From positions 62,001 through 126,000 of the forward strand of contig JARGOC010000003.1 of assembly GCA_029212365.1 (NCBI GenBank): a stretch of 64,000 nucleotides of DNA, given 5' to 3'. A program made the position numbers and the translations under genes. The stretch is from Roseovarius sp. GTDB taxonomy: Bacteria; Pseudomonadota; Alphaproteobacteria; Rhodobacterales; Rhodobacteraceae. Within the stretch, counting starts at the first letter, position 1, and the number at the start of each line of letters is the position of its first letter. Positions 29,853 through 36,713 of this stretch are shown here, in pieces. The notes beneath the pieces are model-generated. The model made no database searches and had not been told where the DNA came from. It was given only the letters and a program-made list of their open reading frames with translations.

Positions 29853-31043
29853 ATGGTCTGGAACACACTCGACAACATGGACCTGGCAGGCAAACGGGTG
29901 CTGACGCGCGTGGATATCAACGTGCCGGTTGAAAATGGGGTTGTCACCGACACCACCCGGATTGACAGGATCGTGCCCACTGTGCGCGACATTCTGGCGC
30001 GTGGTGGCAAGCCGATGTTGATCGCCCATTTTGGCCGGCCCAAAGGCAAGGTCGTGCTGGATTTGTCTTTGCGTGTTGTGCTGCCTGCGCTGGAACAGGC
30101 GTTGGGGCACAAGGTGAGATTGATTGAAACGCTGGAGGGTGCTGAAAACCTGACGGATGAGGCCAAAGCCGCTGATGTGTTGTTGTTGGAAAACATCCGC
30201 TTCAACCCCGGCGAGCAGGCAAATGACCCTGAGTTTGCCAAACGTCTGGCCGATCTTGGCGACATTTATTGCAATGATGCATTTTCCGCAGCCCACCGCG
30301 CACATGCCAGCACCGAAGGGGTGGCCCATGATATGCCCGCATGTGCCGGGCGTTTGATGCAGGCCGAACTGGAGGCGCTGGAGGCGGCCCTTGGCACCCC
30401 AAAGCGGCCCGTCATGGCGGTTGTGGGCGGGGCCAAGGTTTCGACCAAGCTGGATCTGCTGGGCAATCTGGTGGATCAGGTCAACTGCCTGGTCATCGGC
30501 GGCGGCATGGCCAATACGTTTCTGGCGGCCCAGGGGCTGAATGTGGGGAAATCCCTGTGTGAACATGATTTGGCCGACACTGCGCGCGAAATCATGCGCA
30601 AAGCCGGCGCTGCCGGATGCGAGATCATCCTGCCTGCGGATGTGATTGTGGCCCATGAATTTAAGGCCAATGCGCCCTATGAAACCCTGCCCGCCCACGC
30701 CTGCCCTGACGATCAGATGATTTTGGATGCCGGCCCGCAAAGCGTGGCCCGTATTTCGACGGCGCTGGAAAATGCCAACACGCTGATCTGGAATGGCCCA
30801 CTTGGCGCGTTTGAGATCAAGCCGTTTGACACGGCCACCAACGCCGCTGCGCGCCATGCCGCCCGTCTGAGCCGTGAAGGCAAGCTGATTTCCGTGGCCG
30901 GGGGTGGTGATACAGTTGCGGCCCTCAATCAGGCCGGTGCAGCGGATGATTTCACCTATATTTCCACCGCCGGGGGGGCCTTTCTTGAATGGATGGAGGG
31001 CAAGCCCCTGCCCGGTGTGGCCGCGCTGACAGCCAACGCCTAA
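29853..31043 (+). CDS. pgk: Phosphoglycerate kinase
   Basis: A 396-residue glycolytic enzyme transferring phosphate between 1,3-bisphosphoglycerate and ADP. Substrate residues are in [11 protein letters not shown] and HFGRPKG (about 20-60); [12 protein letters not shown] and the hinge follow. The C-terminal nucleotide domain has [14 protein letters not shown] and the [13 protein letters not shown] signature. Start ATG has GAGG upstream. gap is not adjacent; class I aldolase is 18 kb away. A long open frame on the opposite strand (29757-31103) is a composition artefact. Confidence 0.98.
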
Positions 31044-31304
31044 AACCGCTGAGCGGCCCATCTGGGCCAGTGCATCCGGGCCAGTCCATCCGGGCCTGAA
31101 CATGCGCGGTCAATCTTTGCCGTCGCAGCAAAATTCCACCGGGATGTGACCGCGAAGCTCTCTTTGTCACCCCTTGGCACAGCCTGCGCAGACTTTGGTA
31201 TAATTCTACGGTCCTCAGATACGCGGGCGAGTGGCATCTTTAGACGCCAGATCGCCCACACGGGCGACCATCCTACGCTTGACCCCATTCATGCATCAAC
31301 CCGC

Positions 31305-31574
31305 TTACTCATCAAAGACCAGCGTTCTTGAGTACTGCGCAATGTCGGACCGCGAGATCCCGATCTGGGCGAGTTGTTGATCGCTCAAGCTTGACAGCGT
31401 TGAAATCATCCGCGCCGTTTGCAGGGTTTTCATTGCAGCGCGCGCTTTTAGGAACGCCCTGCGCCCAAACATCTTTAGCCCCAAGGATAGGCTGGATGCC
31501 TTCATCGGCACTGACGTCAAACCACTGGAGGCGCTATGGCTGGTTGCTCTTGCTGGTTGCCAGTTAACAATCAT
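31305..31574 (-). CDS. DUF1127 domain protein, 89 residues
   Basis: A small basic protein with a C-terminal DUF1127 (YjiS-like) segment, STLSSLSDQQLAQIGISRSDI. Several DUF1127 proteins in Rhodobacteraceae and rhizobia have been reported as RNA-binding or stress-related small proteins. The ATG at 31574 has GGAGG six bases upstream; a longer in-frame start would read through the preceding gene. It overlaps the 3' end of a second DUF1127 gene by eleven bases, so they form a tandem pair from one promoter. Confidence 0.8.
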   Translation of the reverse strand: MIVNWQPARATSHSASSGLTSVPMKASSLSLGLKMFGRRAFLKARAAMKTLQTARMISTLSSLSDQQLAQIGISRSDIAQYSRTLVFDE

Positions 31575-31788
31575 CTGAAGCCTCCATCGCCAAGTTTTTG
31601 ATGCTGCACCGCGGTATTCCCAAATCTTTGAGAGTGCGGTCAGGCAGCGCCGAGAGCTCACGCCGCGTCGCGTGATAGATTTTAAAACTTGCTACTGCCT
31701 TTTGCATTTGCTCGCGTTTGTGATGAAAAAATGTGCGTTGGGCATCTAGGATGACGTCCAGCATTCCATGTGATCGAATTATTGCCAT
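31564..31788 (-). CDS. DUF1127 domain protein, 74 residues
   Basis: A 74-residue basic protein ending with a DUF1127 segment (LSALPDRTLKDLGIPRCSI). I placed the start at the ATG at 31788, preceded by GAGG; a longer frame reaches into the divergent promoter region. It is the first gene of the tandem DUF1127 pair. Its upstream region holds two CTGC-N3-GCAG palindromes, one of which occurs again in the nas operon promoter. Confidence 0.8.
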   Translation of the reverse strand: MAIIRSHGMLDVILDAQRTFFHHKREQMQKAVASFKIYHATRRELSALPDRTLKDLGIPRCSIKNLAMEASDDC

Positions 31789-31807
31789 TGTTCTGCCTCG
31801 TCTATTG

Positions 31808-31837
31808 CTGCGTCGCAGTATATATGCTGCACTGCAG
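31808..31837. promoter_or_regulatory. Two CTGC-N3-GCAG palindromes in the DUF1127/LysR intergenic region
   Basis: CTGCGTCGCAG at 31808-31818 and CTGCACTGCAG at 31827-31837 are spaced 19 bp centre to centre. They sit 20 to 49 bases upstream of the first DUF1127 gene and 84 to 113 bases upstream of the LysR gene. The core matches the published binding pattern of PhaR, the polyhydroxyalkanoate regulator of Paracoccus (CTGC-N3/4-GCAG). A third copy lies in the nas promoter at 35157. Confidence 0.55.
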
Positions 31838-31920
31838 AAACTAGACACATACGGCAGCGTGCACAATTTCTGAATTTGGCACAGGACCCATGCCAAAATG
31901 GAACAAGCGGAAGACGGGAC

Positions 31921-32850
31921 ATGGATATTTCAGCGCAAATGTTGATCTTTGCGACAGTTGTTGAGCAGGGAAGCATCTCTGCTGCGGCCCGATCAATTGG
32001 GCAAACGCCCTCTGCGGTCAGCAAACAGATCGCGTTACTTGAGGATCACGTTCACTATCGCCTGCTGAACCGCACCAGAACCGGCATTTCACCAACGCAG
32101 GAAGGCCAGGAACTCTATCTGAAATGCAAAGCGATGGCTGAAAAATTTAAAGAGGCCGAGGCACTTATTTCAAGCTTCGATGGCACCCCGCGTGGCAAGC
32201 TAAAGATTGCATCCTCCGTGGCATTCGGGAAATCAAAGCTGATCCCGGCCCTCCCGACATTCATCAAAGAAAACCCGGAGGTCCATATCTCGTTGGATTT
32301 GACGGATCGGGAAATTGATTTGCAAAGCGAGGGGTTTGATGCTGCCATTTGTTTTGCTGAGCAGAACAAAAACCCTGATATCATGGTCCGCCGCATTATG
32401 CAGAGCCGCCGCGTGTTATGCGCCTCGCCCGCCTACCTTGAGCGCTGCGGAACACCCAAAGATTTCAATGAGTTGGAGCAGCACAACTGTCTCAGACTCA
32501 GCACAGAGAGCAAGCGGAATTTCTGGGTCAATGTTGCGCCTGACAAAAAACGAAGCTTTGAAGCGCTGGGGAACTTTGAAGGGAACAGTACCGATGTTAT
32601 CTTTCGCGCCGCGCTCGCTGGCGTCGGGATCGCGCGGCTGCCGTGCTATATGACAGATCTGAAATTTCAGTCAGGTGAATTGGTCCATGTCATGCCGCAA
32701 TACTCGCCGCCAAGCACTGACATCGTTGTGATGTTTGCAGACAGGCGCAACCTTTCCCCGAAAACACGCGCCTTCATTGATTTTCTGGTGGCTCAGTTTC
32801 GAAACACGCCTGAGAAATCAAGGGACCGGGCCGAGTGTATTGGGTTGTGA
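31921..32850 (+). CDS. LysR family transcriptional regulator
   Basis: A 309-residue LysR-type regulator. The winged helix-turn-helix is at the N-terminus (FATVVEQGSISAAARSIGQTPSAVSKQIALLE, about residues 10-41). The substrate-binding domain starts near 90 (GKLKIASSVAFGKSKLIPALPTF). Start ATG at 31921 gives MDISAQML; a frame beginning at 31876 lacks a ribosome binding site. It is divergent from the DUF1127 pair and followed by a CMD gene after 26 bp. Its inducer and targets are unknown, but the CMD gene is a natural candidate. Confidence 0.92.
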   Translation: MDISAQMLIFATVVEQGSISAAARSIGQTPSAVSKQIALLEDHVHYRLLNRTRTGISPTQEGQELYLKCKAMAEKFKEAEALISSFDGTPRGKLKIASSVAFGKSKLIPALPTFIKENPEVHISLDLTDREIDLQSEGFDAAICFAEQNKNPDIMVRRIMQSRRVLCASPAYLERCGTPKDFNELEQHNCLRLSTESKRNFWVNVAPDKKRSFEALGNFEGNSTDVIFRAALAGVGIARLPCYMTDLKFQSGELVHVMPQYSPPSTDIVVMFADRRNLSPKTRAFIDFLVAQFRNTPEKSRDRAECIGL

Positions 32851-32876
32851 AACAGCTGCCGAGGAGAATATGAGCA

Positions 32877-33263
32877 ATGACTGAAACCACGACAGAACGA
32901 GGGAGAGCTCTCTCTGAACGGCTAAATCCGGGCATGGAAAGGGCCTTGAATGAACGCTACGGTCACTTGCTGCCCGATATGGCCGAAGGGGTTGTCGATT
33001 TTGCCTATGGCCGCCAGTACGCGCAACCCGGATTGCCATTGCGCGACAGGTATTTGGCGACGATAGCTGCGTTAACGGCACTGGGAGGTCAAACCAGACC
33101 ACAGTTGAAGGTTAACATTGAGGGCGGTCGGAAAGCTGGCCTGTCTCAAGAAGAAATTGCGGAGGTCATTTGGCAAATGGCACTATATGGCGGATTTCCG
33201 TCGGCTATTAATGCGCTGAACGCTGCGCTTGAAGTGTTTGAGGGTGAGAGTGAGGTAAACTGA
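32877..33263 (+). CDS. Carboxymuconolactone decarboxylase (CMD) family protein
   Basis: A 128-residue member of the CMD/AhpD-like superfamily. Typical segments are [30 protein letters not shown], the [26 protein letters not shown] helices and [11 protein letters not shown]. It lacks the CxxC pair of AhpD-type reductases, which favours a PcaC-like role, but no other protocatechuate genes are nearby, so function is open. GAGGAG lies ten bases before the ATG. It is probably co-transcribed with the LysR gene. Confidence 0.85.
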
Positions 33264-33326
33264 CTTGCATCCTGTAACTATCGACGCATCCGGTGTCGCC
33301 CATCATTCTGAGGTATTTTCGCGCCC

Positions 33327-33911
33327 ATGACCAAAGACCTGACCATTGTCGTTGTGGAAGAAGACCGCGACCGTGCAATAGCCATTGTCGACGCACTCCA
33401 GGAGGCTTGCGCGTGCGATGTCTCCATTATTGGCAACTCCAGCGGATTGGCCCGCAAGATCGCCGCCCGTTCGCCGGACATCGTGCTGATCGACATCGAC
33501 AACCCGACCCGCGACATGATGGAAGAACTGACTTTGGCCTCTGGCCCGTTGGAGCGCCCAGTCGCGATGTTCGTGTCCGGTGCGGCGGGCGGTTTGGCAC
33601 AGGCGGCCATCGAGTCGGGCGTGTCGGCATATGTTGTTGACGGCCTGTCGCCTGAGCGGGTCAAGCCAGTCATGGACACGGCCATCGCCCGATTTGCGAT
33701 GATACGCCAGATGCGCAGTGAGCTGGCCGAGACACGCCGTGCACTCGAAGAGCGCAAGGTCATTGACCGGGCCAAGGGGCTGCTCATGAAGGCCAAAGGG
33801 CTCGATGAGGGTGCAGCCTATGCCCTGCTGCGCAAGACCGCGATGGATCAGGGGCGGCGGGTTGCTGATGTGGCCGAGGCTTTGGTTACTGCGTCGGGGT
33901 TGTTGGGATGA
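33327..33911 (+). CDS. nasT: ANTAR-domain nitrate response regulator NasT
   Basis: A 194-residue response-regulator-like protein: an N-terminal receiver domain (about 1-120; IVLIDIDNPT at the phospho-acceptor strand) and a C-terminal ANTAR RNA-binding domain (about 130-190; KVIDRAKGLLMKAKGLDEGAAYALLRKTAMDQ). NasT binds paired hairpins in the nas leader RNA and prevents termination; NasS holds it inactive without nitrate. The gene order nasT-nasS and the leader before nrtA match that model. It overlaps nasS by four bases (ATGA). Confidence 0.95.
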   Translation: MTKDLTIVVVEEDRDRAIAIVDALQEACACDVSIIGNSSGLARKIAARSPDIVLIDIDNPTRDMMEELTLASGPLERPVAMFVSGAAGGLAQAAIESGVSAYVVDGLSPERVKPVMDTAIARFAMIRQMRSELAETRRALEERKVIDRAKGLLMKAKGLDEGAAYALLRKTAMDQGRRVADVAEALVTASGLLG

Positions 33912-35080
33912 AGACAGTCACGATCCCCGTTGCCTTCATGCCGTTGGTGGATTCGGCGCCTCTCATCATCGCGCAAGAGATGGGATTTGCCGAGGCTGAG
34001 GGCATAGCGCTAGACCTGATTACCGCGCCGTCATGGTCCTCGGTGCGCGACATGTTGGCCTTTGGCCGGGTGGATGCGGCGCATATGTTGTCGCCCATGC
34101 CAGTCGCAATGGCGATGGGGCTTGGGGGTGTGGCCACCGAATTGTCCGCAGTTTCTGTCCTGTCTGTGAACGGCAATGTGATCGGGGTTGGCAAACGCCT
34201 CGAAGAGCAGTTGCGACAAGCAGAGTACAAGTTTGATTTTTCTGATCCAATGCGTGCCGCCGAGGCCTTGGTGCAGGTCAGTCCACGGCCAATTGTGTTT
34301 GGTGTGCCATTTCCGTTTTCCATGCATGTGGAGCTGTTGCGCTACTGGGCGCGGGCTTCTGCGCTTGGCCCGGACGGTGTTGCCATCCGCACTGTGCCGC
34401 CACCGCTTATGACGAGCGCGCTGGCCAACGGCGATGTGGATGCGTTTTGTGTCGGTGAACCTTGGGGATCGGTGGCCGTCGAGCAAGGCGCTGGCGCGCT
34501 GTTGTTGCCCGGCAGTTCGATCTGGAGTTTTGCGCCCGAAAAGGTTTTGGCCACCCGCACCAATTGGGCCGATACCGAGCCGGATTTATTGGGGCGTCTT
34601 ATGCGTGCGGTCTGGAAGGCCGGGCGTTGGCTGGCCGATCCGAGCGCCCGCACCGCCGCCAGCGATTTGCTGTCACGCAAAGCCTATCTTGATGTGCCGT
34701 CTGAACTTGTTGATCGCGCGCTTTCGGGGCATCTTACACTTTCGGGTCAGGGCGAGCTGCGGCACGTCGAGAGGTTTCTTGAATTCCATAAGGGGGCTGT
34801 CAGTTTCCCGTGGCGCAGCCAGGCAAAGTGGATCGCACAACAGTTGCACAAATCAGTTGGTGGCGAACCCAATTTCGACATCGATGAAATCGCAAAGGTG
34901 TTTCGCGCGGATCTGCATCGGATGCATCTCAGTCGGTTAGACCCTGATCTGCCGGGGGCCTCTGAGAAAGTCGAGGGAGCGATTCCCCATGCGATGCCTG
35001 TGGCCTCGGCCGGAGGCGCGTTAACCTTGATGCCGAACCAGTTTTTTGATGGTCAAATTTTCGACCCGGCACTTTATTGA
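33908..35080 (+). CDS. nasS: Nitrate/nitrite sensor protein NasS
   Basis: A 390-residue protein related to NrtA/CmpA solute-binding proteins but lacking a signal peptide, as expected for the cytoplasmic nitrate sensor that sequesters NasT. Family segments include VAFMPLVDSAPLIIAQEMGFAEAEG, AHMLSPMPVAMAMGLG and the VDAFCVGEPWGSVAVEQG nitrate-site region. It shares the fold with the exported NrtA encoded downstream. The gene begins within the nasT stop. A gap of 265 bp with promoter, leader hairpins and terminator separates it from nrtA. Confidence 0.93.
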   Translation: MKTVTIPVAFMPLVDSAPLIIAQEMGFAEAEGIALDLITAPSWSSVRDMLAFGRVDAAHMLSPMPVAMAMGLGGVATELSAVSVLSVNGNVIGVGKRLEEQLRQAEYKFDFSDPMRAAEALVQVSPRPIVFGVPFPFSMHVELLRYWARASALGPDGVAIRTVPPPLMTSALANGDVDAFCVGEPWGSVAVEQGAGALLLPGSSIWSFAPEKVLATRTNWADTEPDLLGRLMRAVWKAGRWLADPSARTAASDLLSRKAYLDVPSELVDRALSGHLTLSGQGELRHVERFLEFHKGAVSFPWRSQAKWIAQQLHKSVGGEPNFDIDEIAKVFRADLHRMHLSRLDPDLPGASEKVEGAIPHAMPVASAGGALTLMPNQFFDGQIFDPALY

Positions 35081-35145
35081 GTGGTATTTTACCATTCCAA
35101 TTCAATGCGTTGAGAAAAATACCTGACTAAACCCAAATTATTGTC

Positions 35146-35173
35146 TTGAGTTTCTGCTGCATTGCAGCATACT
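35146..35173 (+). promoter_or_regulatory. Predicted nas operon promoter with a central palindrome
   Basis: TTGAGT (35146-35151) and CATACT (35168-35173) are spaced 16 bp and resemble -35 and -10 boxes. The 15-bp palindrome TGCTGCATTGCAGCA (35155-35169) lies between them and touches the -10, a classic repressor position. Transcription would start near 35180, just before the first leader hairpin. Promoter strength is a guess. Confidence 0.5.
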
Positions 35174-35182
35174 TGGACATGC

Positions 35183-35232
35183 ATCCACAACGGTGTGGAT
35201 CGCAACGAATTTTTCCCAATGACAGGGACGTT
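35183..35232 (+). ncRNA. Predicted ANTAR-target hairpins in the nas leader
   Basis: Hairpin one at 35183-35200 has a six-base-pair stem ATCCAC/GTGGAT and the hexaloop AACGGT, with A at loop position 1 and G at position 4, the hallmark of ANTAR targets. Hairpin two at 35214-35228 has TCCC/GGGA around AATGACA, also A1 and G4 but seven bases long, extended by AACG/CGTT pairing at its base. Both precede the intrinsic terminator, as expected for NasT-mediated antitermination. Confidence 0.65.
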
Positions 35233-35240
35233 TTGAGCAA

Positions 35241-35291
35241 GGTCGCTCACTTTCTGCCGATGATTTCGGCGGTCAGTGATCGGCCTTTTTT
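35241..35291 (+). terminator. Leader intrinsic terminator upstream of nrtA
   Basis: GGTCGCTCACT pairs with AGTGATCGGCC (one mismatch and one G-U pair) and encloses an inner GCCG/CGGC stem. The structure is followed by TTTTTT at 35286-35291 and another T-run a few bases on. It lies 55 bases before the nrtA start, in untranslated leader, so it is a regulatory attenuator and not an end-of-operon terminator. Confidence 0.8.
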
Positions 35292-35345
35292 GCGTTTTTT
35301 TCCGGTCTTTCTTGCCTGCGACCGGCCACAACCAAAGGACTAAAC

Positions 35346-36713
35346 ATGAGACGACTCCTCCTCGGCCTCGCCACCACAACCGCATTGTTCAGCCAGGCCT
35401 CTGCCGAATTGCTGGACCTTGAAAAAGACGAACTGAAATTCGGCTTCATCAAGCTGACCGATATGGCCCCCCTCGCGGTGGCCTATGAGCAGGGCTATTT
35501 CCTTGACGAGGGTCTCTTTGTGACGCTTGAGGCGCAAGCCAACTGGAAGGTGCTGCTGGACGGTGTGATCGACGGGCAGCTAGACGGCGCGCATATGTTG
35601 GCAGGTCAGCCACTGGCCGCCACCATCGGCTATGGCACCGAGGCCCATATCGTGACGCCCTTCTCAATGGATCTGAATGGCAACGGCATTACGGTCTCAA
35701 ATGAGGTCTGGGACATGATGCGCCCGCATATCCCATCAATGGACGATGGCCGCCCACAACACCCGATCTCAGCACAAGCCCTGGTTCCGGTGATCGAAAA
35801 TTTTAACGCCAAGGGCGAGCCTTTTAACATGGGGATGGTTTTCCCCGTATCGACCCACAATTACGAGCTGCGCTATTGGCTGGCCGCGGGTGGCATCAAT
35901 CCCGGCTACTACAGCCCCGAGAACATCTCTGGTCAGATTGCTGCGGATGTCTTTTTGTCAGTCACCCCCCCGCCACAGATGCCTGCGACGCTCGAAGCCG
36001 GGACAATCCACGGCTATTGCGTGGGCGAGCCCTGGAACCAGCAGGCGGTGTTCAAGGGCATCGGCGTTCCGATCATCACCGACTATCAGATCTGGAAGAA
36101 CAACCCCGAAAAGGTGTTTGGTATGACAGACGCCTTTGTCGCCGAGCATCCCAACACCACCAAAGCCGTCGTTCGGGCGCTGATCCGTGCGGCGATGTGG
36201 CTTGACGAAAACGACAACGCCAACCGCCCCGAAGCTGTCGAAATCCTCAGCCGCGCAGAATATGTGGGCGCTGACCCAGATGTGATTGCAAACTCCATGA
36301 CCGGGTTCTTTGAGTTTGAAAAAGGCGACAAGCGCGACATCCCTGATTTCAATGTCTTCTTTCGCCACAACGCGACCTATCCCTATTACTCCGATGCGAT
36401 CTGGTATCTGACACAGATGCGCCGCTGGGGTCAGATTGCCGAACCCCAGAGCGATGAATGGTTCGCAGAAGTTGCCGCCAGCGTCTATCGCCCGGACATC
36501 TATCTTGAGGCAGCGCGCTCACTTGTGGATGAGGGTCTTGCGAATGAAGCGGATTTCCCGTTCGACAGCGACGGCTTCAAAGAGCCAACGCCCGCGGCGG
36601 ACATCATTGACGCCATCCCCTTCGATGGGCGCACGCCCAACGCTTACCTCGAAAGCCTGCCGATCGGCTTGAAGAGCACGCAGACAGTCGTCGGTGATCA
36701 GGTTCAAGGCTAA
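35346..36713 (+). CDS. nrtA: Nitrate ABC transporter substrate-binding protein
   Basis: A 455-residue exported nitrate-binding protein. A signal peptide covers about residues 1-20 ([17 protein letters not shown]). The mature domain resembles Nrt[38 protein letters not shown] and the [17 protein letters not shown] nitrate-site region. It delivers nitrate to the NrtB/NrtC permease. Translation starts at the ATG at 35346, preceded by AAAGGA. Its last eight codons are duplicated 167 bp downstream within a 91-bp repeat. Confidence 0.95.

Follow-up and report, generated by a model that had tools for sequence, protein, structure and literature searches.

A 64,000-nucleotide stretch of the Roseovarius sp. 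contig JARGOC010000003.1 (assembly GCA_029212365.1, positions 62,001 to 126,000 of the forward strand), called the window below, carries two groups of genes that a preliminary description had linked through a common operator. The first is a pair of genes for small DUF1127 proteins, from which a gene for a LysR-type regulator diverges. The second is an operon for assimilatory nitrate use (nas), whose first gene we take to be nrtA-like; ahead of it lie two genes that are presumably NasT-like, a name given from the arrangement, and NasS-like (Table 1). Three palindromes, two before the DUF1127 pair and one upstream of nrtA, are on sequence grounds highly probable binding sites of PhaR, a regulator that responds to stored polyhydroxybutyrate (PHB).

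Palindromes at the DUF1127 and nas promoters

The preliminary description had reported three copies of CTGC-N3-GCAG, and all are present where it placed them, two ahead of the DUF1127 pair (31808-31818 and 31827-31837) and one ahead of nrtA (35157-35167). The short 11-mer core alone is weak evidence, as its over-representation is mild, about twofold; seven copies occur in the 64-kb window against a shuffle mean of 2.98, and 2 of 100 shuffles contained at least seven. The extended palindrome TGCTGC-N3-GCAGCA is found exactly at three places in the 4.03-Mb genome, the nas site among them. With up to one mismatch it occurs at 35 places, compared with 3 for a reversed control; many of the one-mismatch places fall within called open reading frames (ORFs).

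A scoring matrix was built from 67 sites that relatives carry around phaP and phaR (29 of 30 pha loci, one short locus being dropped). Its training words were first picked by the palindrome of the preliminary description with up to two mismatches, so that the core is not independent of that description, whereas the spacer and flanks are. In the window, the three highest scores belong to the three palindromes, followed by matches of 14.6 and 10.4 bits. The 14.6-bit match, at 31602-31616, lies within the first DUF1127 gene and upstream of the second. The spacers of the three sites, ATT at nas and AGT and GAC on the DUF1127 strand, all fit the form R-N-Y (TGCRNYGCA). The two promoters had been said to share flanking bases as well, which holds for the right flank, GCAGCATA, in register at both, but not for the left flank, AGTTTCTGC, which is displaced by 3 nt.

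Table 1. Genes and candidate operators of the window; positions count from its first nucleotide
Feature	Position	Strand	Basis and remarks
Second DUF1127 gene, which overlaps the first at the latter's end	31305..31574	-	PF06568, 24.3 bits on longer ORF 31305-31661; presumed start 31574
First DUF1127 gene, 75 aa	31564..31791	-	PF06568, 34.2 bits on longer ORF 31564-31896; presumed start 31791
Proximal candidate PhaR-type operator of the DUF1127 pair, TACTGCGACGCAGCA	31806..31820	-	20.2 bits; 19 bp to the distal site
Distal candidate PhaR-type operator of the DUF1127 pair, TTCTGCAGTGCAGCA on the gene strand	31825..31839	-	23.9 bits; 8 further loci have a counterpart
TTGGCA-N9-TGCCAA palindrome, flanked by the DUF1127 pair and the LysR gene	31876..31896	.	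Read from the sequence
LysR-type regulator gene, divergent from the DUF1127 pair	31921..32850	+	PF00126 and PF03466 on ORF 31876-32850; presumed start 31921
NasT-like antiterminator gene	33327..33911	+	tblastn match in 80/80 nas loci
NasS-like nitrate sensor gene	33908..35080	+	tblastn match in 80/80 nas loci
Candidate PhaR-type operator upstream of nrtA (nas operon), TGCTGCATTGCAGCA	35155..35169	+	Exact TGCTGC-N3-GCAGCA; 24.1 bits, the window's best
nrtA-like gene for a nitrate transporter binding protein, first of the nas operon	35346..36713	+	78-93% identity (best segment), 80 loci

Sites at the pha genes and across Rhodobacterales

The genome has one phaR gene, located after phaC and phaP, whose product has both a DNA-binding and an accumulation domain (97.3 bits for PF07879 and 42 bits for PF05233 in a profile search). 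On contig C16, the palindrome lies between phaZ and phaC (82283), twice before phaP (84152 and 84180, 28 bp apart) and before phaR (84811); thus, the promoters at which the preliminary description proposed to look for the motif all carry it. An R-N-Y spacer is also what the published PhaR rule of Bradyrhizobium diazoefficiens, TGCRNYGCASMA, prescribes, a rule derived with footprints (PMC6201568); the genome holds 99 matches to this consensus, against 15 for a reversed control, both strands summed.

Further sites lie outside the pha cluster. One, at C17:61827, covers the start called for a ppdK-like gene, a name that reads beyond the Pfam match, and another, at C43:28767, is 31 bp before a gene of the methylmalonyl-CoA-mutase family. 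Both fit control by PhaR; the Sinorhizobium meliloti counterpart of ppdK is a target. A site at C55:21195 lies after purF, ahead of what is likely the start of a small ORF. The good one-mismatch palindrome at C59:191341-191355 was considered as a promoter site of a response-regulator diguanylate cyclase and rejected, as two ORFs converge on it with their 3' ends; no gene is obviously under its control.

In relatives, 30 of 50 phaR matches were examined for the palindrome with up to two mismatches. In 20 of the 30 loci it stands no more than 110 bp ahead of the PhaR domain. In 25 it occurs 500-1100 bp upstream, where phaP lies, and 21 of the 30 have two sites there at a distance of 26-29 bp. 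The spacer was unused in selection, and it has the form R-N-Y in 61 of the 67 pha sites. Only 2 of 292 genomes of the order are without phaR. These two give 0 and 1 pattern matches (0 is also the count in 2 of 38 genomes with phaR), and neither has a nas match at E 1e-50.

For the nas operon, named Rhodobacterales genomes were scanned with the NrtA protein, and the best 80 loci among the matches listed, all with NasT- and NasS-like genes, were taken, with the 400 bp before nrtA as the upstream segment. The palindrome with up to two mismatches is present in 55 of the 80 segments, while the mean across all 90 half-site arrangements, counting the real one, was 2.2, and the best of the others gave 7. 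The pha-trained matrix, whose training genomes are among those scored here, reaches at least 12 bits in 57/80 nas upstreams, compared with 1/80 nasS segments, 0/80 nrtA segments and 3/400 block-shuffled sequences. Again unused in selection, the spacer is R-N-Y in 60 of 65 sites. At least two matches occur in 10 of the 55 upstreams, and in four of these (L047, L056, L060 and L104) they are 23 bp apart, resembling the phaP double site to some extent.

Homologues of the first DUF1127 protein (E up to 1e-6) occur in 13 of 149 genomes of the order, own genome included, with 15 matches. The double site accompanies nine of the 15, again counting the window's own (L215, L216, L217, L218, L228, L229, L222, L224 and L220; seven genomes). 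Its two palindromes are 19 bp apart in eight loci and 20 bp apart in L220, and all 18 spacers are R-N-Y. DUF1127 genes in general were surveyed in an evenly drawn sample of nine genomes, own included, of whose 40 matches the 30 with loci were used (four of the 30 upstreams are from the own genome). The palindrome with up to one mismatch occurs in 10/30 upstreams (permuted mean 0.03, maximum 1), a figure that pools two operator classes, six R-N-Y and four ATA by inspection; with up to two mismatches, it occurs in 0/30 downstream segments. A count of 14/30 from a set of eight genomes was not used as an estimate, since that set had in part been chosen for its high motif counts or for a DUF1127 match. 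The enrichment upstream of genes that the preliminary description had proposed as a check is therefore found before nas and DUF1127 genes and not in neighbouring coding or downstream controls.

A conserved DUF1127-nas neighbourhood was also considered and rejected, the arrangement being observed in the window and one further locus alone. In that locus (L282, G062:C1:2604000-2616000), DUF1127, LysR-like (a two-piece match), NasT, NasS and NrtA genes follow in the order of the window, and sites stand at both promoters. No match to the DUF1127 pair or to the LysR gene of the window was detected in any of the 80 nas loci (76 with 5 kb of upstream sequence, four with 2.3-4.2 kb).

Known PhaR systems and competing regulators

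The PhaR proteins of Rhodobacter sphaeroides and Paracoccus denitrificans repress phasin genes. The preliminary description had cited Paracoccus PhaR for CTGC-N3/4-GCAG; recognition of such a palindrome by PhaR stands, but the species is better given as Rhodobacter. The R. sphaeroides site is CTGCNNNGCAG, the core found here, and the phaP and phaR promoters carry it; unlike the present case, nas and DUF1127 genes are unnamed as targets in the part of the source consulted (PMC12542648). S. meliloti PhaR (AniA) follows the rule YGCRNYGCR and efficiently binds an rpoE8/acyP site, TGCTGCACTGCAGCA, that has the same extended palindrome with the spacer ACT; ppdK is among its targets, and the model of PHB sequestration is shared (PMC12542648). 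On the other hand, Table 3 of that study, which includes genes of unknown function, holds no nas-named gene, and the main text does not mention DUF1127 at all (PMC12542648). For B. diazoefficiens, besides the similar rule, nirK and nifR are targets (Table 2, PMC6201568) and napEDABC is induced in the mutant (PMC6201568; PMC10888616). These targets, however, are respiratory or regulatory and do not concern assimilatory nitrate uptake, and DUF1127 has 0 occurrences in either report (PMC6201568; PMC10888616). Among the literature matches listed, with the original R. sphaeroides and Paracoccus papers outside the scope, none linked PhaR to nas or DUF1127 genes. What is proposed is that the nas and DUF1127 sites are new members of a known PhaR regulon, not a new kind of system.

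Several observations weigh against repression of nas by PhaR. The matrix score stays below 12 bits in 23/80 nas upstreams. Among the 80 nas genomes, phaR was present in all 50 tested, including all 25 without a nas match of up to two mismatches; PhaR is thus kept where the nas site is missing. Within the genus, nas is patchy (1/10 relatives), and the relative that has it is without a good site, showing only one two-mismatch word, whose core is broken, plus a CTGC-N4-GCA word (N4 spacing was looked at in this relative alone; all palindrome counts use N3). The nas site had been placed between predicted -35 and -10 elements, for which TTGAGT-N16-CATACT (8/12) can be read weakly by eye, but a sigma-70 scan at 9/12 or better called nothing in 35060-35350, nor in 31780-31940. 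Finally, of the 55 matched nas sites, 48 lie 205-280 bp before nrtA and seven at 181-191 bp, with the window's at 191 bp. The window site is therefore of the nearer kind, and its geometry, perhaps even the sign of control, differs from that of most relatives.

This distribution of distances favours an unlikely alternative in which PhaR binds but activates nas in most relatives, from a site further upstream, and represses it in the branch of the window alone. PhaR of S. meliloti has protein modules with a profile that suits activation no less than repression (PMC12542648).

It is less likely still that the sites belong to a LysR-type regulator, either the divergent LysR protein or one like VtlR/LsrB. 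The precedent is VtlR of Brucella, which regulates three DUF1127 genes through a TGCAGC-containing motif, CAATGCAGCCATGCA (PMC12595884). A LysR homologue diverges from the DUF1127 pair in 8/9 double-site loci (own included, one in pieces), and the VtlR motif reaches at least 11 of 15 positions in 26/80 nas upstreams against 10/80 shuffled ones, perhaps through a shared half-site. The divergent regulator may have an operator of its own in TTGGCA-N9-TGCCAA at 31876-31896; the pattern TGGCA..TGCC recurs in five of the nine loci, own included. Against LysR ownership of the PhaR-type sites, the double site stands in L220 without any LysR match in the 1.5 kb of upstream flank, and 57 nas upstreams keep a good site, yet none of the 80 nas loci matches the window's LysR gene or DUF1127 pair. 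LsrB/VtlR has, moreover, been described as unique to Rhizobiales (PMC11975290). In the window, the VtlR motif attains 11 of 15 at nas and 10 of 15 at DUF1127, values that shuffles also reach.

The VtlR motif instead fits another type of DUF1127 gene, represented in the own genome at G000:C59:167233-167328 and in relatives by L219, L221, L223, L225, L226 and L227. Upstreams of this second type match 12-14 of 15 positions in 7/7 cases (13 of 15 for the own gene), whereas at least 12 was reached in 2/120 shuffles. The operator of the C59 gene, L219, L221, L223, L226 and L227 is TGCTGCATRGCAGCA, adjoined in several of them by a TTGTGCA..CTGCAGCA-like word. Spacers are ATA or ATG in five loci, L225 giving no site, and with the own C59 site added by hand, none of six is R-N-Y. 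The likeness to Brucella lies in DUF1127 genes under a TGCAGC-containing operator (PMC12595884), and the difference in that the motif fits the C59-type gene and neither the pair nor the nas site of the window. Such an operator is present here even though Rhodobacterales are said to lack LsrB/VtlR (PMC11975290). The C59 gene, which has an exact 15-mer, was at one point counted as a PhaR target and was withdrawn on account of the ATA/ATG spacers and the match to the VtlR motif; judged on sequence, the operator of this type is probably VtlR-like and not PhaR's. The split of spacers, 18/18 R-N-Y against 0/6, together with the VtlR fit, sets the window sites apart from those of a LysR-type regulator.

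nas operons are commonly under NtrC. Even so, it is very improbable that the nas site is one for NtrC or for a regulator of the FNR/NnrR type. Over the 80 nas upstreams, the NtrC palindrome TGCACC-N5-GGTGCA shows a small excess over the permuted mean with up to one mismatch (2 against 0.1) and up to three (25 against 13.3), but with up to two it is found in 3/80 against 1.5, and GCAC-N7-GTGC with up to one in 19/80 against 17.2. For FNR/NnrR, TTGAT-N4-ATCAA and TTGAC-N4-GTCAA with up to two mismatches give 9/80 against 6.6 and 8 against 8.3. The PhaR palindrome, by comparison, stands at 55 against 2.3 in the same upstreams, and the nas site itself is not a TGCAC..GTGCA palindrome. A weak additional NtrC input at nas may exist. 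Chance or a dispersed repeat would accord with an excess of the 11-mer of only about twofold, but has next to no probability in view of the conservation controls at nas and DUF1127 upstreams and the mere three exact 15-mers in the genome.

Carbon storage as a proposed gate for nitrate use

The phaR gene, the pha sites and the conservation in relatives support the proposal of the preliminary description that one regulator, perhaps PhaR, serves both promoters. We infer from them that the local PhaR binds and represses these promoters, while its mode of recognition and its sequestration by PHB are taken from the literature. In Cupriavidus necator, PhaR represses in the absence of PHB synthesis and is sequestered on granules once PHB accumulates, and comparable roles have been reported for alphaproteobacteria (PMC12542648). 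We put at roughly three in four the probability that PhaR binds at the nas operon and the DUF1127 pair and keeps both repressed for as long as PHB granules do not sequester it. With little stored PHB, free PhaR would occupy the three palindromes and keep both transcription units repressed; under carbon excess, accumulating PHB would draw PhaR onto the granules and release them.

At nas, the PhaR step would precede a second one. Antitermination by NasT is established for the NasT/NasS gene pair and would read nitrate. A terminator-like hairpin in the nas leader (35270-35282; 0.4 expected by chance) agrees with this, so that a nitrate signal would be added to that of PhaR; an Rfam search of 30000-36000 gave no match up to E 0.5. 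Since the PhaR step would come ahead of the NasT/NasS step, full nas expression would need stored carbon and nitrate both.

Parts of the proposed system exist in the group: a phaZCPR cluster, a PhaR protein and polyhydroxyalkanoate (PHA) granules have been reported for Roseobacter litoralis (PMC4103551). In S. meliloti, nitrogen limitation triggers PHB storage, and PHB has known ties to nitrogen genes that involve a FixK-like motif (PMC5596199). It would make sense for nitrate uptake to be released when such storage sets in. In Rhodobacter, DUF1127 proteins bind RNA, and in Agrobacterium the phosphate sensor PhoR (PMC12501420); the DUF1127 pair could therefore pass the signal further.

Accounts of how cells match nitrogen uptake to carbon reserves mostly invoke PII and NtrC. 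For Rhodobacterales at large, the evidence leans towards a scheme in which the PHB granule acts as a direct gate on assimilatory nitrate use, with PhaR shutting off nas and a class of small DUF1127 regulators until carbon has been banked, and in which phosphate or RNA turnover is perhaps reached through the DUF1127 proteins. If this is true, a widespread marine group would possess a one-step switch from carbon to nitrate, with PhaR reading the granule and controlling nas directly. It would also provide a regulator for some of the DUF1127 genes of the order, separated from those of the second, VtlR-like class.

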